A stretch of 25,200 nt of DNA, taken from a virus. Under the pieces are notes generated by a model. The model did not search any database. It was given only the letters and a program-made list of their open reading frames with translations, and was not told where the DNA came from. Position numbers and translations under genes: made by a program. Shown one piece after another: positions 14,428-20,133 of the stretch; position 1 is the stretch's first letter, and every line of letters starts with the position of its first letter. The stretch covers positions 1 through 25,200 of the IMG/VR virus record IMGVR_UViG_3300030390_001042; one strand, written 5' to 3'.

Positions 14428-15582
14428 TTAATTAATTGCATATTTACCAAAGTTAGGTTTTGATAAAATACTATATGTACTATAACGTAAAGCATCTATT
14501 AAGTGGTTGTGTTTATCTTCAGGGACATTAATTGTTTTTCCACTTTTGTCTTCTTTCCATTTATAATTTCTAAACTCTTGTATTGCATTATTACTATCCT
14601 TAGTTAAATGAATCTTATATCTTTTTAGAAGATCTATTCCTGCATTTACTGAATCTCTACCTTTTACACTTGGTCTTATATTCCAACCCATTCTTCTTAA
14701 TTCGTCTATCAATCTTACTTCGGCTGAGTCTGCGTAGATCATCTCCCTGTTAATATTTAATGAAGTAAGAAACTTATGAATATCTGTTGTTGTCATCATA
14801 GTTCTATATAAATACTCTTTAGCATATAAATCATAACCATCAGTCCAAACTCCTATAAGCGTTGTTGGATCATTAGTGTACCCAAAATCCATTCCATAAG
14901 ATAAAAAATTTAAATGTTCAGGAACTTGATTAACTTCTATGTATCTTAAAATGGTTGACTTTGTGACTCCTTTTATTCCAAGTCCATATATTTGCCAATA
15001 CTGCTCATCTGTGTCTCTAAGTCTTTCAATTTCTTCTACTATTGTTGACTCTAAAAATGGATTGTCTAAGTAAGTTGTTTTATAAAAATCTGCGTCATCT
15101 CTTGTAATTACCTTATCGTAGATCCAATGGTATTCATCTGAAGGATTGTAATCTATTATTATTCTTTCTTGTGTCCTAAAAACGAGTTGTTGCCAATCTT
15201 CCCAGTATAATTCGTTTGCTTCATTTATAAATAACAAATCTCTTTTTCTACCTCTCACTTTTTGAGGTTGATCTAAACTTATAAACTCTATTAGATTTCC
15301 GTACAACTGATATTCACTTGAAGACTTGTTATGTGACTCTTCTGAATACATCTTATGTTTTCTTAGTATATCTATAAAGTCTCTCATTACAGACGCTCTA
15401 AGGCTTGGAAAAGTCTTTCTACATATTGTTATAGTTTTGTTTCTTTTATTAGTACAATAACTAAAGATGATCCAAAGTAAAATATTATATGTCTTACCTG
15501 ATCTAGTTCCGCCTTGTTCTACTATTATTTTCTTATTGCTTTCTACTAAATGTCCATAAACATCATTAGTTTTTATTCTCAT
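14428..15582 (-). CDS. terL: Terminase large subunit (ATPase and nuclease)
   Basis: A 384-residue DNA-packaging motor with both functional halves. Walker A is GGTRSGKT (24-31), and the Walker B-like block is LLFINEANE (116-124) with Glu121 as the likely catalytic acid. A coupling-like VFRTQER segment follows near residue 134. The RNase H-like nuclease has YGMDFGYTNDPTT (Asp232), IYADSAE (Asp285) and HNHLIDALRY (Asp363). The order and spacing match the PBSX/XtmB-like Terminase_3 group; the length is slightly short but complete. It overlaps the small subunit gene by 17 bases. It is the strongest call in the window and shows that this is a tailed phage. Confidence 0.96.
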   Translation of the reverse strand: MRIKTNDVYGHLVESNKKIIVEQGGTRSGKTYNILLWIIFSYCTNKRNKTITICRKTFPSLRASVMRDFIDILRKHKMYSEESHNKSSSEYQLYGNLIEFISLDQPQKVRGRKRDLLFINEANELYWEDWQQLVFRTQERIIIDYNPSDEYHWIYDKVITRDDADFYKTTYLDNPFLESTIVEEIERLRDTDEQYWQIYGLGIKGVTKSTILRYIEVNQVPEHLNFLSYGMDFGYTNDPTTLIGVWTDGYDLYAKEYLYRTMMTTTDIHKFLTSLNINREMIYADSAEVRLIDELRRMGWNIRPSVKGRDSVNAGIDLLKRYKIHLTKDSNNAIQEFRNYKWKEDKSGKTINVPEDKHNHLIDALRYSTYSILSKPNFGKYAIN

Positions 15583-15916
15583 TCCTTATAATCTCAACTG
15601 TAACACTTGTTGGTAAACCTTCAGCTCCTGTTATTTCTTGACGCTCTACATACCCTCGTTTCTTTCCTTTTGTTTTTAATAAAAAAATAGTTGCTGCTGT
15701 ATTTCCTCCTTGTATCTGTTTATGTAATTGACTTTCGGCAAAATCTAAAGCTACGTCTTGTATCTCATCAACTTGTTTTTTAAAATCTAAGTCTTTTAAA
15801 TATTCATAAAACGTAGTTCTTCCAACTTCAGCCTGTCTACAAGCACTTGTAACTACACCTAAAGATTTTTCTAGCGCTTCTATTAAAGCCTTTTTATTGT
15901 GTTCTGTTTTGTTCAT
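15566..15916 (-). CDS. terS: Terminase small subunit-like DNA-binding protein
   Basis: A 116-residue protein just upstream of TerL. Residues 9-50 contain a helix-turn-helix (ALIEALEKSLGVVTSACRQA, then EVGRTTFYEYL), as in phage small terminases that recognise the packaging site. A helical oligomerisation part (DEIQDVALDFAESQLHKQI) follows and a short polar tail ends the protein. Its ATG overlaps the FolE stop (ATGA at 15916-15913), so the modification operon runs straight into the packaging genes. Call based on HTH, length and position. Confidence 0.85.
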   Translation of the reverse strand: MNKTEHNKKALIEALEKSLGVVTSACRQAEVGRTTFYEYLKDLDFKKQVDEIQDVALDFAESQLHKQIQGGNTAATIFLLKTKGKKRGYVERQEITGAEGLPTSVTVEIIRNENKN

Positions 15917-16737
15917 TTTATACAGTTTAAAAATTCATTCCTACATTCCGCCTGATCTTTAAAGAATCCTAATAATTTATTTGTAGTAGTCCAAGTATTA
16001 TGTTTTTTTACTCCTCTCATTTCCATACACATATGTTTTGCTGTTAATGAAACTGCAACTCCTTTTGGCTCTAACTCTTTCCATAAAAACTCTGCAACTT
16101 GTGTTGTTATTCTTTCTTGGTTTTGTAATCTTCTTGAATAAGTTTCTAAAGTTCTTGCTAATTTAGAAAGACCCACAATTTTTTTATTTGGTATATAGGC
16201 TATATGTCCTTCCCCAAAGAAAGGTGCTATATGGTGTTCACACAAAGAATGAAAAGGTATATTTTTTTGTATTATCATCTCGTCATAACCTTCTCCCTCA
16301 AATGTTGTACAGTTCCATTTTGGAGGATTCAAAAATTCCTTAAAAAACTTTATATATCTTTTTGGTGTATCTTTTAATCCTTCCCTTTCTACATCTTCTC
16401 CAAAGTATTGTAAAAGTCTTATAACATTATCCTCTATGTCTCCTTCAGAATTTTCCCAAGGAAACACTAACCATTCATTTTGTAACTCTTCTCTTTTATC
16501 TATTAAAACACTAAAAGGTTTATTATATTTTTTATATCTGTTTAATGTAGTTCCACTATCAATTAAGTCATCAACTATAACATCTGCTTGTTCTATTTTA
16601 TCTACTGCGTTTCCTAATAATCCTGCTACTATTTGTCCTCCTCTTGGAACTCCATAATATTTTGTTTCAGGATCATACTTTGATTTTAAAAAATCTACTC
16701 TATTATATATTTCTGTCCAACTTATTTCTGTTTTCAT
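15913..16737 (-). CDS. folE: Phosphoribosyltransferase-like domain fused to GTP cyclohydrolase I
   Basis: A 274-residue fusion. The C-terminal about 175 residues are a full GTP cyclohydrolase I: CEHHIAPFFGEGHIAYIP (166-183; Cys166 and His169 as zinc ligands), GLSKLARTLETYSRRLQNQE (189-208), and HMCMEMRGV (235-243; Cys237 as the third ligand). This enzyme turns GTP into dihydroneopterin triphosphate, the first step of 7-deazaguanine synthesis. The N-terminal about 95 residues resemble a type I phosphoribosyltransferase: VPRGGQIVAGLL (30-41) and the PRPP-binding loop VIVDDLIDSGTT (53-64). Ordinary FolE proteins lack this extension. It could salvage or hydrolyse purine nucleotides, or regulate the enzyme; its activity is unknown. 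The gene overlaps the small membrane gene upstream and TerS downstream. Confidence 0.93.
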   Translation of the reverse strand: MKTEISWTEIYNRVDFLKSKYDPETKYYGVPRGGQIVAGLLGNAVDKIEQADVIVDDLIDSGTTLNRYKKYNKPFSVLIDKREELQNEWLVFPWENSEGDIEDNVIRLLQYFGEDVEREGLKDTPKRYIKFFKEFLNPPKWNCTTFEGEGYDEMIIQKNIPFHSLCEHHIAPFFGEGHIAYIPNKKIVGLSKLARTLETYSRRLQNQERITTQVAEFLWKELEPKGVAVSLTAKHMCMEMRGVKKHNTWTTTNKLLGFFKDQAECRNEFLNCIK

Positions 16738-16840
16738 ATATTATTTTTATTATATAAAATATTATTAATAATGTTAAAATTGTATTTATATTAAAATGTG
16801 GCTCTCCACATAATCCTGTTAAGTGTTTAATTGTTTTCAT
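16703..16840 (-). CDS. Membrane microprotein with TGLCGEPH motif (45 residues)
   Basis: A short gene in the gap between queE and folE. It reads MKTIKHLTGLCGEPHFNINT, then a hydrophobic helix (ILTLLIIFYIIKII, about 21-34) and a polar tail. I recall LTGLCGEPHP-type one-TM microproteins in other marine phages, also near small metabolic genes, but with no known function. The stop lies 35 bases inside folE, so the two overlap. The Cys/His pair (Cys11, His15) could bind a metal. Start chosen at the ATG right behind the queE stop (16842). Confidence 0.6.
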   Translation of the reverse strand: MKTIKHLTGLCGEPHFNINTILTLLIIFYIIKIIYENRNKLDRNI

Positions 16841-16841
16841 T

Positions 16842-17570
16842 TTATACTCCTGTTTTTTTATTCCAAATATCTATATGCAATCTAGTTGTAAAATTTAAGT
16901 GGTTCCGGATTGCTAAGTCTACTACTTTTTGTTTATTATTATTTAACAAGTCTTGATTTTCTCCGGCAGGCATTAAATATATTTTACTATGATCTACAAT
17001 ATTAAAATAATCTTTTTTAATTTCTTTCCATTCTTTTTCTCCGTTCACTACAAATTTAAAAATTGTATTTTTTTTATTTAATTTAGCAATGACATCTTCT
17101 TTAAAAGTGAGGGATCTATCGTTTCCACTATTTTTTAATTTAGGACTACAATTCCATAAATCAATATTATTAAATAAATTTTGCTCTGGCATTATTGTTC
17201 CATTAGTTTCTACTTCAAAAAAAACATTTTTATTTATATTACTTTTAACATAATAGATAAATTCAAGTAAAGAGGCTTGTTGCATCATCGGTTCGCCTCC
17301 TGTTAATATTATATGTGCTCCTTTTTTTATTGCTTCAATACAATCTTTTGGTAATATTTTATTAACTTCCATACTTTGTGCTTTCATCCAAACCTCTACT
17401 GTATCACATCTAAATTCTGCATCGTTATGAAGTTCTCCATCAAATTGAGTTCCCATTCCTCCACACATTAAATTACAACCACCTAATCTAACAAACACAC
17501 TTGGGATTCCTACAGTTTTTCCTTCTCCTTGTATTGAATAAAATACTTCACTAATTGCCAGTTTCTTCAT
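16842..17570 (-). CDS. queE: 7-carboxy-7-deazaguanine synthase, radical SAM
   Basis: A 242-residue enzyme that converts 6-carboxytetrahydropterin to CDG. Family marks include ISEVFYSIQGEGKTVGIPSV (6-25), FVRLGGCNLMC (26-36), CDTVEVW (55-61), the TGGEP motif (90-94), FFEVETNGT and NCSPKLKNSGN. The radical-SAM Cys residues are Cys32, Cys36 and Cys55, giving CX3CX18C instead of the usual CX3CX2C; the 16-residue-longer gap (GGMGTQFDGELHNDAEFR) sits between the second and third ligands. Such loops are known in other QueE variants (for example CX14CX2C in Burkholderia), so it is probably active. The gene overlaps queD by 20 bases. Confidence 0.93.
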   Translation of the reverse strand: MKKLAISEVFYSIQGEGKTVGIPSVFVRLGGCNLMCGGMGTQFDGELHNDAEFRCDTVEVWMKAQSMEVNKILPKDCIEAIKKGAHIILTGGEPMMQQASLLEFIYYVKSNINKNVFFEVETNGTIMPEQNLFNNIDLWNCSPKLKNSGNDRSLTFKEDVIAKLNKKNTIFKFVVNGEKEWKEIKKDYFNIVDHSKIYLMPAGENQDLLNNNKQKVVDLAIRNHLNFTTRLHIDIWNKKTGV

Positions 17571-17952
17571 ATATTATAGTACTTGATTTTGTTTCTGCTA
17601 ATTCAATCCTAGTTATTGGAAGTTCTTTTTTTATTCTATTAAATAACCAAATTGCCATATTTTCTGCTGATGTTTCAAAAGGTAATACAATAATTGGTTC
17701 ATTATTAAAATTTAATACTTCAACTAAAGGATCGTTTTTATATAACGCAAAATAATGATCATATTCTTTTATAATAGGTTCAGCAACTTTATCAATGTCT
17801 GAAAACAACATTGTTACTCCGTTGGTCATTTTAGTAAATTTAAACTCACACACAACATCATAGGTATGTCCGTGTAGCCTTCCACACTTTTCTCCTGCTT
17901 CTTTATTTCTGTGACCCATATAAAAATGGTACTTTTTTCTTATTTTAATCAT
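17551..17952 (-). CDS. queD: 6-carboxy-5,6,7,8-tetrahydropterin synthase
   Basis: A 133-residue T-fold enzyme that converts dihydroneopterin triphosphate to 6-carboxytetrahydropterin, the substrate of QueE. The zinc ligands His14 (FYMGHR), His27 and His29 (CGRLHGHTY) are present, as is Cys23, the usual catalytic Cys. The DHYFALYKNDP segment, the TSAENMAIWLF helix and the substrate-binding Glu in ELAETKSS complete the family pattern. Length is normal for QueD. It lies between dpdA (five bases upstream) and queE (overlapping), so the pathway genes are in one unit. Confidence 0.93.
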   Translation of the reverse strand: MIKIRKKYHFYMGHRNKEAGEKCGRLHGHTYDVVCEFKFTKMTNGVTMLFSDIDKVAEPIIKEYDHYFALYKNDPLVEVLNFNNEPIIVLPFETSAENMAIWLFNRIKKELPITRIELAETKSSTIIYEETGN

Positions 17953-17957
17953 TCTTT

Positions 17958-18839
17958 TTAATCTTGGTTTCCTGCAAAGTTATTATATATTTTTTTAAAC
18001 TGCTCTGCTGCAAATGTTTCAGTTCCAAAATACCTTTTATTATTTGGAGTTTTATGTAAAGGAAATTTATTGTCTTTTATTTCTTTCCATTTTGTAAATC
18101 TGTTTTCCCAAATTTGTGATTTTAAATTTTTAATATGATTAATCCCTACTGATGTTTCTATTTTTCCATACTTAACTGGAGATAGCCAACTAGTAGAATC
18201 CGAAGAAGAACAAAATTTGAATTTATTAAAATTATTTTTTTCTGTAAACCCCAACAAATGAATATCAATTTCAGGTTTTTTATTTTTTATGTAATTAGCT
18301 AGTTTGTATAAATATTCTTTTTTTTTAATAAATCTTAACTCAGGAACACTTAAAGCTATATAATCAGAAAATTCAATTAACCTATCTAATCCTTTTTTTC
18401 CATCTTCAAAATGAAATACATTTATAATTCTATTTGGTAGTTTATCTTTCATTTTTATTCTATACTCCCAAGCCTTTTCTACTCCTAATACTTTTTGGCA
18501 ATCAACCTCAACCATCGTTCCTTTATATTTTTCGTAAAGAACATAATCAGTCAAACACTCATACCATTTATCCAAATAAGATTCGTCTTTTTTTCCTTTT
18601 AATGAGCCAAACATTAAAGTAAATAAACCACTATCCAATATATAGTGTTTATATTTAGATGATATTTGTTTAATAATCTTTCTGTCATCTATTTTTCCAT
18701 TCTTAAACATTTTATGTACAAAAGGAAAAGCAGTTCCAAGTCCATAATTAACTTTAGCAGCTAGTGAACTAATTGCGTGGTTCATTTGTTCTGTACCTGC
18801 AAAATGAATTTTTATATTAGATTGGTTTTGTGTTATCAT
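17958..18839 (-). CDS. dpdA: DpdA-type DNA guanine transglycosylase
   Basis: A 293-residue protein related to tRNA-guanine transglycosylases, the enzymes that swap guanine for a 7-deazaguanine. Visible marks: HYILDSGLFTLMFGS (65-79) with Asp69 in the position of the TGT DSGG motif, MVEVDCQKVLGV (109-120), IALSVPEL (161-168), IHLLGFTE (193-200) in the place of the TGT HxxGxG-like strand, and SSSDSTSWLSPVKYG (211-225) with Asp214 as a plausible nucleophile. It lacks the TGT zinc-binding Cys cluster. Context with queD, queE and folE supports a DNA rather than tRNA role. Its ATG overlaps the stop of the T-fold gene upstream (ATGA). The DpdA subfamily cannot be settled by eye. Confidence 0.88.
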   Translation of the reverse strand: MITQNQSNIKIHFAGTEQMNHAISSLAAKVNYGLGTAFPFVHKMFKNGKIDDRKIIKQISSKYKHYILDSGLFTLMFGSLKGKKDESYLDKWYECLTDYVLYEKYKGTMVEVDCQKVLGVEKAWEYRIKMKDKLPNRIINVFHFEDGKKGLDRLIEFSDYIALSVPELRFIKKKEYLYKLANYIKNKKPEIDIHLLGFTEKNNFNKFKFCSSSDSTSWLSPVKYGKIETSVGINHIKNLKSQIWENRFTKWKEIKDNKFPLHKTPNNKRYFGTETFAAEQFKKIYNNFAGNQD

Positions 18840-19168
18840 TTTTCTACTCTAGCCCCGCCCTTTCCATCTTCAAAAATTTCTACCCAAACACCTCCATCAT
18901 CTAAAGTAAATTGTAGCAACTCTTCTGCAATCATCTCACAACTCATATCTCCAAAATTACAAGGATTTCCATAAGATTCAATTAAGTAATCTTTAATAAA
19001 GTCTTGTTGTATAAAAATTTCTTTTTCTCTGTTTAGATCGTCTACTTTATATCCAATACGTATTTGAAAAATATGTCTGTGTTTATGTGCTAAGAAATTA
19101 ACTTTTTTTGGTGGATTAGGATAAAAATGGAATCCTTCAATGTCAAAATCTAATATTACTGTTGTCAT
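18836..19168 (-). CDS. Divergent QueD-like T-fold protein, candidate base-tailoring enzyme
   Basis: A 110-residue protein with the outline of QueD/6-pyruvoyltetrahydropterin synthase: a first His in EGFHFYPNPP (His14), a His cluster AHKHRHIFQIRIGY (27-40) in the place of QueD's LHGHxYxVxV, a strand EIFIQQDFIKDYL like the QueD VIDFGDLK block, a helix SCEMIAEELLQF like TSENLAxWL, and a strand ending VEIFEDGKGGARVE like the QueD Glu motif. The QueD catalytic Cys before HGH is absent (Asn/Phe instead). A true QueD already lies two genes on, so a different reaction is likely. It overlaps dpdA (ATGA). Phage 7-deazaguanine tailoring enzymes, including a CDG decarboxylase (DpdL), have been described; whether this belongs there is a guess. 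Confidence 0.65.
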   Translation of the reverse strand: MTTVILDFDIEGFHFYPNPPKKVNFLAHKHRHIFQIRIGYKVDDLNREKEIFIQQDFIKDYLIESYGNPCNFGDMSCEMIAEELLQFTLDDGGVWVEIFEDGKGGARVEK

Positions 19169-19171
19169 AGG

Positions 19172-19708
19172 TTATTTATTTACTATAAGGTCGTAAATTA
19201 TTTTCTCTTTACCAACAATTTCCTTATCTAAAATGTTAATTAAAGTGTTGTAATCTTCCTCGTTATATTCTAATGTTATTTTATGTTTTTCTATATCATC
19301 TTCTGTTTCATCGGTTTCATTAAAAAAATCTTCAAGTTCTAAGTCTTCTTCAGGCTTCCAAACATCTAAACCCCATTCATTAAGTTTTTCACTTTCCCAA
19401 CCATTTGCTAGTGAATCCCAATCCCATTCCCCAAACCCAATATTATCTTTTATAATAAATTCTTGTTTTTGATCTTCTGTCCAGTCTTTAGCAATCAAAA
19501 TATCTACTTGTTTTAATCCTGCTTCCTGACAAGCCTTTAACCTCATATTACCACCTAGTATTATCATTTGATCATCAACTACTATTGGTCTTTTTTCTAA
19601 CATTTCAGGAAAATCCTTAATAGATTTAACAAGTTGTTTGAATTTATTATCTTTTATTATTCTAGGGTTTTTTGTATTTGTTTTTATTTTATTTATATTT
19701 ATTTTCAT
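19172..19708 (-). CDS. ParB/sulfiredoxin-fold nuclease-like protein
   Basis: A 178-residue protein with an N-terminal ParB-like domain. [20 protein letters not shown] (1-20) matches the usual opening strand and NPR motif, followed by the helix [14 protein letters not shown], the strand [20 protein letters not shown] (40-59) with the GGNMR phosphate-binding loop, and [19 protein letters not shown]. Then comes an acidic tail (about 120-178). Stand-alone ParB-like domains are common in phages, where some act as nucleases and others are linked to DNA modification. It overlaps the HNH gene upstream (ATGA) and ends just before the T-fold gene, so it may be part of the modification operon. Exact activity unknown. 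Confidence 0.8.
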
Positions 19709-20133
19709 AATAATTTCAGTTGAAGTTTGTTTTCTTCATTTTTAAACTCTTTCATATTCTCAGAGGGAGTAACCCATTCTAAATTTCCAATGTGGTTGTT
19801 TTGTCTGTTTCCATCAATATGATTAACTTGAGTGTATTTTTGTCTATTTATGCATTTTATAAAAGTACAAGCAACAAGTCTGTGAATATACACAGTTTTA
19901 TATATATTGTTAAATTTAACTCTTTTTACAACATAAGGATTGATGGAGTTTCTTGAATTAGGTCTTTTGGTTTTTAAATTTTTATTAGAATAATTAGACT
20001 TTATCTGACCTCTTCTATTTATTAGATACTCTGTAAAATAATATGTAGTAAAATCTATACCATCCCAAAGAGAAGGTATTGTGTATTCATTTAAATATTT
20101 ATTTTCAAAAGGAAAAAATGATTGTTGACTCAT
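19705..20133 (-). CDS. HNH endonuclease with NUMOD4-like N-terminus
   Basis: A 142-residue protein. The N-terminal segment ([19 protein letters not shown], then INRRGQIKS) resembles NUMOD4, a DNA-binding module of homing nucleases. The HNH part has HRLVACTFI (His84), [20 protein letters not shown] (103-122) and SENM, the usual HNH signature with His105 as base candidate. It could be a free-standing homing endonuclease. Against a recent insertion, both ends overlap the neighbours by four bases (ATGA), so it is embedded in the operon. It may have been recruited for genome maintenance. Activity is likely since all key residues are seen. Confidence 0.88.

Follow-up and report, generated by a model that had tools for sequence, protein, structure and literature searches.

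A QueD-like T-fold protein stands in the place of QueC in a viral 7-deazaguanine cassette

We analyzed a compact gene cassette within 25,200 nucleotides of viral DNA (the window; positions 1 to 25,200 of IMG/VR record IMGVR_UViG_3300030390_001042), which form part of a 27,311-bp contig that may itself be incomplete. The cassette encodes FolE, QueD, QueE, a DpdA-like transglycosylase and a small T-fold protein, and it is a variant of the known phage systems for 7-deazaguanine DNA modification. In this cassette the T-fold protein takes the place of QueC. Because a pathway lacking QueC would stop at 7-carboxy-7-deazaguanine (CDG), and because the T-fold protein stands where QueC would be, we place its step after CDG.

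FolE, QueD and QueE make CDG (PMC6884629), and here they would convert GTP into that base. The T-fold protein would then act on CDG instead of QueC, most likely by stripping its carboxylate to yield 7-deazaguanine. The DpdA-like enzyme, probably with a ParB/DpdB-like protein, would swap guanine in DNA for 7-deazaguanine before packaging, and a phosphoribosyltransferase (PRTase)-like domain on FolE may turn the freed guanine back into guanosine monophosphate (GMP). DNA modified in this way would escape restriction enzymes. We assign this mechanism, running from CDG through a likely T-fold decarboxylase to insertion of 7-deazaguanine by DpdA, a probability of roughly 0.6. A sequence-only reading of the window had proposed 7-deazaguanine modification through DpdA, and that proposal is well supported by the tRNA-guanine transglycosylase (TGT) fold, the invariant catalytic Asp, the full CDG pathway and the adjacent terminase genes.

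Distribution of QueC and the T-fold protein

The QueC family (PF06508) is absent from the whole contig, as the sequence-only reading had it for the operon, and the absence is systematic across the family rather than a gap in one contig. At least 423 viral contigs carry a homologue of the T-fold protein, usually together with FolE, QueD and QueE. No QueC was found in a first set of 40 IMG/VR contigs and 6 phage genomes containing the T-fold protein or its DpdA clade; the lone QueC match beside this set is locus L002, which has no T-fold gene. A further 50 contigs (up to 292 kb) also yielded none, bringing the related IMG/VR contigs without QueC to 90. Among the 64 T-fold loci of at least 9 kb in the last set, FolE was found in 49, QueE in 45, QueD in 38, DpdA of the phrog_887 type in 14 and QueC in 0. 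As a comparison, a control set gathered with the L002 DpdA carries QueC in most loci and the T-fold gene in none.

A pooled profile search of 157 loci gave the same partition: 128 have the T-fold gene without QueC, 29 have QueC without the T-fold gene and 0 have both. An apparent co-occurrence at L064 was a false hit on QueD and was discarded. The corresponding Fisher p of 3e-14 overstates the evidence, since the sets were gathered by T-fold or DpdA searches and the loci are related. L002 and its relatives have the order ParB-DpdA-QueC-QueD-QueE-FolE, with queC between dpdA and queD; therefore, the two cassettes differ mainly by the presence of QueC or the T-fold protein. The DpdA proteins divide along similar lines. 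A tree of 75 sequences groups the DpdA proteins that accompany the T-fold gene in one clade (support 100/100) and those that accompany QueC in another, with a single crossing (L044/L045) that lies on a long, uncertain branch.

The pattern extends to named phages. Cellulophaga phiST, MA9V-3, BUCT-ZZ01 and ACP17 carry the T-fold gene with FolE, QueD and QueE and without QueC; in phiST, the homologue lies beside the other three. A search for phrog_887 DpdA in these four phages and in Bakedbeans gave no match. Since phiST and MA9V-3 thus have no phrog_887 DpdA, a protein of phrog_20335 (unknown function) that adjoins the T-fold gene in both (L047:12771-13550, L048:10812-11606) could be an unrecognised transglycosylase or its partner.

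Two further arrangements were seen. In the large phages BUCT-ZZ01 and ACP17 (L049:7337-9920, L051:7701-9997), genes for a glycosyltransferase-like protein and a phrog_10773 protein (unknown function) lie beside those for the T-fold protein, QueD, QueE and FolE, and the base may be glycosylated in these phages. Contigs L080 and L085 contain DpdA, QueD, QueE and FolE with neither QueC nor the T-fold gene. Between their dpdA and queD, the usual site of queC, lies a methyltransferase-like gene (L080:1379-1951, L085:6575-7159; PF13489 at 24.4 bits, slightly below the cut-off), which might provide an alternative tailoring of CDG, for example to a methyl ester.

Folds, conserved residues and gene layout

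The T-fold protein has no match in Pfam and was found only in phrog_17812 (unknown function). Searching the PDB by sequence, with the T-fold and DpdA-like proteins or their profiles as queries, returned nothing significant, and a comparison of folds was therefore needed for both. The AlphaFold2 (AF2) model of the T-fold protein (predicted local distance difference test score, pLDDT, 94.6) has a beta-beta-alpha-alpha-beta-beta topology, and its top PDB matches are structures of Escherichia coli QueD (3qna and 4ntk; Z 13.3, root-mean-square deviation 2.2 over 106 residues). With QueD and 6-pyruvoyltetrahydropterin synthase (PTPS) it shares the T-fold, three metal-binding His (H14, H30 and H32) and the Glu that anchors the ring of the base (E100).

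The rest of the active site has changed. Across 120 distinct homologues, L26, H30, R31, H32, F34, R47, E50, C77 and E100 are invariant, and H14, S76 and E78 are each kept in 119. The position of the catalytic Cys of QueD, which is Cys in 101 of 101 QueD sequences, is Leu26 in all 120; the HGH motif reads HRH in all 120, with Arg31 for Gly; and the Asp-His pair is missing (no DH motif). The cassette's own QueD keeps C23, H27, H29, D65, H66, E97 and E120. Profile alignment of the T-fold protein with this neighbouring QueD matches H30 and H32 to the two histidines of HGH and E100 to the ring-anchoring Glu, with a hhalign E of 8.5e-4 and a probability of only 24%, so the residue matching rests mainly on the agreement of folds. 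On account of its altered Cys, Gly and Asp-His positions, the T-fold protein is not a second QueD but a paralogue within the QueD family. A retained metal site, a pocket able to take a guanine-like ring and newly conserved charges would suit CDG as its ligand.

The DpdA-like protein was likewise modeled with high confidence (pLDDT 91.5), and its best PDB matches are all TGTs (best Z 17.4 over 258 residues). The TGT active site, whose inactivity would have counted against the sequence-only reading, is intact: all 82 homologues keep D69, D113 and D214, which correspond to TGT D102, D156 and D280 by motif position and fold, rather than by residue-level superposition. H194 is equally invariant and is a candidate counterpart of the conserved His196 of phage 9g DpdA, which is absent from DpdA2. 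The protein belongs to the phage family phrog_887, and its score against the bacterial DpdA equivalog NF041059 is 14.5 bits (cut-off 200); the QueC-type relatives match annotated 9g-type DpdA. By family, its substrate is expected to be DNA.

A ParB gene accompanies dpdA in 86 of 95 loci, and in most of them the two adjoin or are separated only by the T-fold gene. In bacteria, DpdA works together with DpdB, a ParB-like ATPase (PMC12839542), and the ParB-like protein here probably has a similar task, giving DpdA access to DNA. This conserved gene and the PRTase-like domain on FolE had gone unmentioned in the sequence-only reading, which had named queC and dpdB/C as genes to look for in the rest of the genome. 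The contig contains no queC, the ParB (DpdB-like) gene is present and no DpdC was seen in the window.

The roughly 97 extra residues at the N-terminus of FolE form a compact PRTase of the guanine/xanthine type. Its motifs (YGVPRGGQ, VDDLIDSGTT, DK and W(L/I)xFPWE) are kept in most of 25 aligned rows. The fusion occurs in 25 loci of this analysis and in 33 phage records, including Pseudomonas phages NP1, PaMx25 and Quinobequin, Vibrio phage VpKK5 and Sphingomonas phage MMDA13, and several of these phages are known to encode 7-deazaguanine pathways. The domain may return the guanine released by DpdA to GMP. We suggest that it closes a guanine-recycling loop, a point that we did not find in the papers examined.

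Ten loci (L012, L022-L025, L028, L030, L031, L033 and L038) have an additional gene of about 173 codons between dpdA and queD, and in nine of them FolE has no detected PRTase domain. We considered whether this gene encodes a free-standing PRTase and rejected it, as the product is a Vut_1/YhhQ-type transporter. Treating fusion and transporter as strict alternatives is also unsupported, because the two coexist in one locus and are both missing from several.

The five genes occupy the place and order first read from the letters, and their family matches and coordinates agree (Table 1). They are transcribed from the minus strand in the order ParB-like, T-fold, DpdA-like, QueD, QueE, FolE, TerS-like, TerL. 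The close packing that had been described was also borne out, with overlaps of 4 nt (T-fold/DpdA and FolE/TerS) and 20 nt (QueD/QueE), a 5-nt gap between DpdA and QueD, and a single larger gap of 104 nt between queE and folE. This arrangement is far beyond chance, since it is found again in about 40 related viral contigs. Promoter and terminator scans gave only chance-level matches.

Table 1. Features of the cassette and its downstream neighbours (positions in the window)
Feature	Position	Strand	Evidence
ParB_N-domain protein, 178 aa; candidate DpdB-like partner	19172..19708	-	PF02195 30.2 bits (cut-off 26.3)
T-fold protein, 110 aa; QueD paralogue, candidate CDG decarboxylase	18836..19168	-	phrog_17812 E 4e-19; AF2; QueD match
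DpdA-like DNA-guanine transglycosylase, 293 aa	17958..18839	-	phrog_887 E 1.6e-23; AF2; TGT matches
QueD, 6-carboxytetrahydropterin (CPH4) synthase, 133 aa	17551..17952	-	PF01242 (PTPS) 81 bits (cut-off 22.4)
QueE, radical S-adenosylmethionine (SAM) CDG synthase, 242 aa	16842..17570	-	phrog_2076 E 1.1e-55, full length; CX3CX18C motif
FolE, whole gene (PRTase-like + GTP cyclohydrolase I)	15913-16737	-	two domain rows below
FolE (GTP cyclohydrolase I) domain	15913..16446	-	TIGR00063 203.4 bits (cut-off 181.6); PF01227 E 2e-63
PRTase-like domain, ~97 aa, FolE N-terminus	16447..16737	-	phrog_8995 E 5e-5; conserved motifs
TerS-like small terminase subunit; downstream neighbour outside the pathway	15566..15916	-	phrog_309 E 3e-6
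TerL, large terminase subunit; downstream neighbour	14428..15582	-	TIGR01547 129.9 bits (cut-off 105)

Two smaller features accompany the cassette. The space between queE and folE holds a small open reading frame of about 40 codons (16741-16840, minus strand; MKTIKHLTGLCGEPHFNINTILTLLIIF...) that resembles a membrane peptide and is kept at the same position in L005, L006, L007, L009 and L011. A free-standing HNH endonuclease gene (19705-20133, minus strand) lies between the ParB-like and DnaA_C-like genes; it has the same position in L005, L006, L007 and L009 and is absent from more distant cassettes.

Weighing the explanations

We favour a CDG-derived base in the DNA, most likely 7-deazaguanine. 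Several observations weigh against a T-fold decarboxylase that supplies DpdA. We know of no T-fold enzyme that acts as a decarboxylase. For the tubercidin pathway, the proposed enzyme of this kind is of the UbiD type (PMC6112128). Many large phages with the T-fold gene show no DpdA of the phrog_887 family. Faecalibacterium phage Roos has the T-fold gene, DpdA and a Vut_1 (YhhQ-family) transporter with no QueD, QueE or FolE beside them; as these enzymes are missing from the neighbourhood, the substrate would come from elsewhere, and Roos may use an imported or host-made precursor.

The retention of the T-fold gene in Roos without adjacent CDG genes also speaks for a different role of the protein, namely another tailoring of CDG or the carriage of the base to DpdA or the specificity of that enzyme, so that the DNA would hold CDG or some other derivative. 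Its gene adjoins dpdA in most cassettes, and the invariant Arg31 and Cys77 are not uniquely indicative of decarboxylation. However, a mere carrier fails to account for the exclusion of QueC, and QueE and QueD are present with no T-fold match in Cellulophaga phages phiSM, phi38:2 and phi47:1, showing that CDG pathways exist without this protein. We consider such a role unlikely, though a genuine contender.

The sequence-only reading had listed three possible products: CDG, a decarboxylated form, or preQ0 made with host QueC. Decarboxylation has emerged as the likeliest, and host-made preQ0 ranks last, given that a dedicated QueD-like protein occupies QueC's place and the two co-occur in none of the 157 loci. 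QueC is present in many bacteria, and E. coli given only the dpdA of phage 9g gains 2'-deoxy-preQ0 (dPreQ0) from host preQ0 (PMC6884629), so that a host could in principle convert phage CDG to preQ0 for insertion by DpdA. Yet the QueC-encoding relatives retain their own queC whereas T-fold cassettes never carry one, a phage drawing preQ0 from its host would hardly need its own FolE, QueD and QueE, and the T-fold protein would be left without an explanation. The host route is improbable.

The chance is slimmer still that the PRTase domain couples phosphoribosyl pyrophosphate (PRPP) with CDG or 7-deazaguanine, the product being converted to a deoxynucleoside triphosphate (dNTP) for the polymerase. 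The domain retains PRPP motifs, phiST has MazG and AAA_18 (kinase-like) genes beside its T-fold gene, and the tubercidin pathway includes a PRTase specific for CDG, TubE (PMC6112128). Against this, the cassette's DpdA has an intact TGT active site, the fusion is absent from about one-third of T-fold/DpdA loci and also occurs in QueC-type phages, and the Gpt-like WxxxPWE motif fits salvage of guanine or xanthine. We give least credence to the possibility that these genes serve to increase the queuosine content of host tRNA instead of modifying phage DNA. FolE, QueD and QueE are common to queuosine synthesis, and DNA is assigned as the DpdA substrate from family alone; however, the contig has no QueC, no QueF, QueA or QueG was found among the genes examined, and phrog_887 DpdA, an adjoining ParB (DpdB-like) gene and a downstream terminase occur together as in DNA-modifying phages.

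For the T-fold protein itself, the likeliest role is to decarboxylate CDG. A broader account, in which a metal-dependent T-fold CDG decarboxylase arose from a QueD-like ancestor through loss of the catalytic Cys and displaced QueC in hundreds of phages, with a Gpt-like PRTase fused to FolE recycling the guanine freed by DpdA into new precursor, is possible and is offered tentatively, as less likely than not. Should decarboxylation prove correct, it would be a reaction new to the pterin-enzyme fold, and the cassette would be one that is widespread in marine phages and whose product in DNA is plain 7-deazaguanine. The either-or pattern of QueC and T-fold protein, the altered QueD active site and the matching DpdA clade together offer a specific and cheap test.

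Relation to known systems

Cui et al. 2023 reportedly found 2'-deoxy-7-carboxy-7-deazaguanine (dCDG) and 2'-deoxy-7-deazaguanine (dDG) in phages, Cellulophaga phages among them, and are said to have predicted a CDG decarboxylase, DpdL. The T-fold protein occurs with FolE, QueD and QueE and without QueC, matching the pattern predicted for DpdL. We take the T-fold family to be a candidate for DpdL. The DNA of Cellulophaga phiST, which carries a homologue, reportedly bears dDG, and this would fit a T-fold decarboxylase. To our knowledge, a phage enzyme that decarboxylates CDG has so far only been predicted. The dDG and dCDG phages also have FolE, QueD and QueE without QueC, and differ in that the DpdA of this cassette is of the phrog_887 type whereas phiST has no phrog_887 match.

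The bacterial Dpd system (DpdA, DpdB and DpdC) has in common a TGT-like DpdA with a ParB-like partner (PMC12839542). Unlike that system, no restriction genes or DpdC were seen in the window, and the DpdA scores far below the NCBIfam cut-off, as given above. The tubercidin pathway (TubA-C, TubE and TubF) similarly makes CDG with GTP cyclohydrolase I, QueD-like and QueE-like enzymes, has no QueC step, includes a proposed decarboxylation and contains a PRTase; it differs in its UbiD decarboxylase and CDG-PRTase, its nucleoside antibiotic product and its lack of DpdA (PMC6112128).

The QueC-bearing phage pathways (9g, CAjan, Rosebush and CRB2; Hutinet et al. 2019, PMC6884629; PMC6392294) have FolE, QueD, QueE and DpdA in common with this cassette. 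In contrast to them, the cassette is without QueC, has the T-fold paralogue of QueD and has a DpdA of a distinct clade. The layout of CRB2 is similar: its ParB-like ORF1 adjoins the DpdA-like ORF2, queC/D/E follow, and the terminase genes (ORF7-8) lie shortly downstream (PMC6392294), as the ParB-like gene and terminase genes do here.

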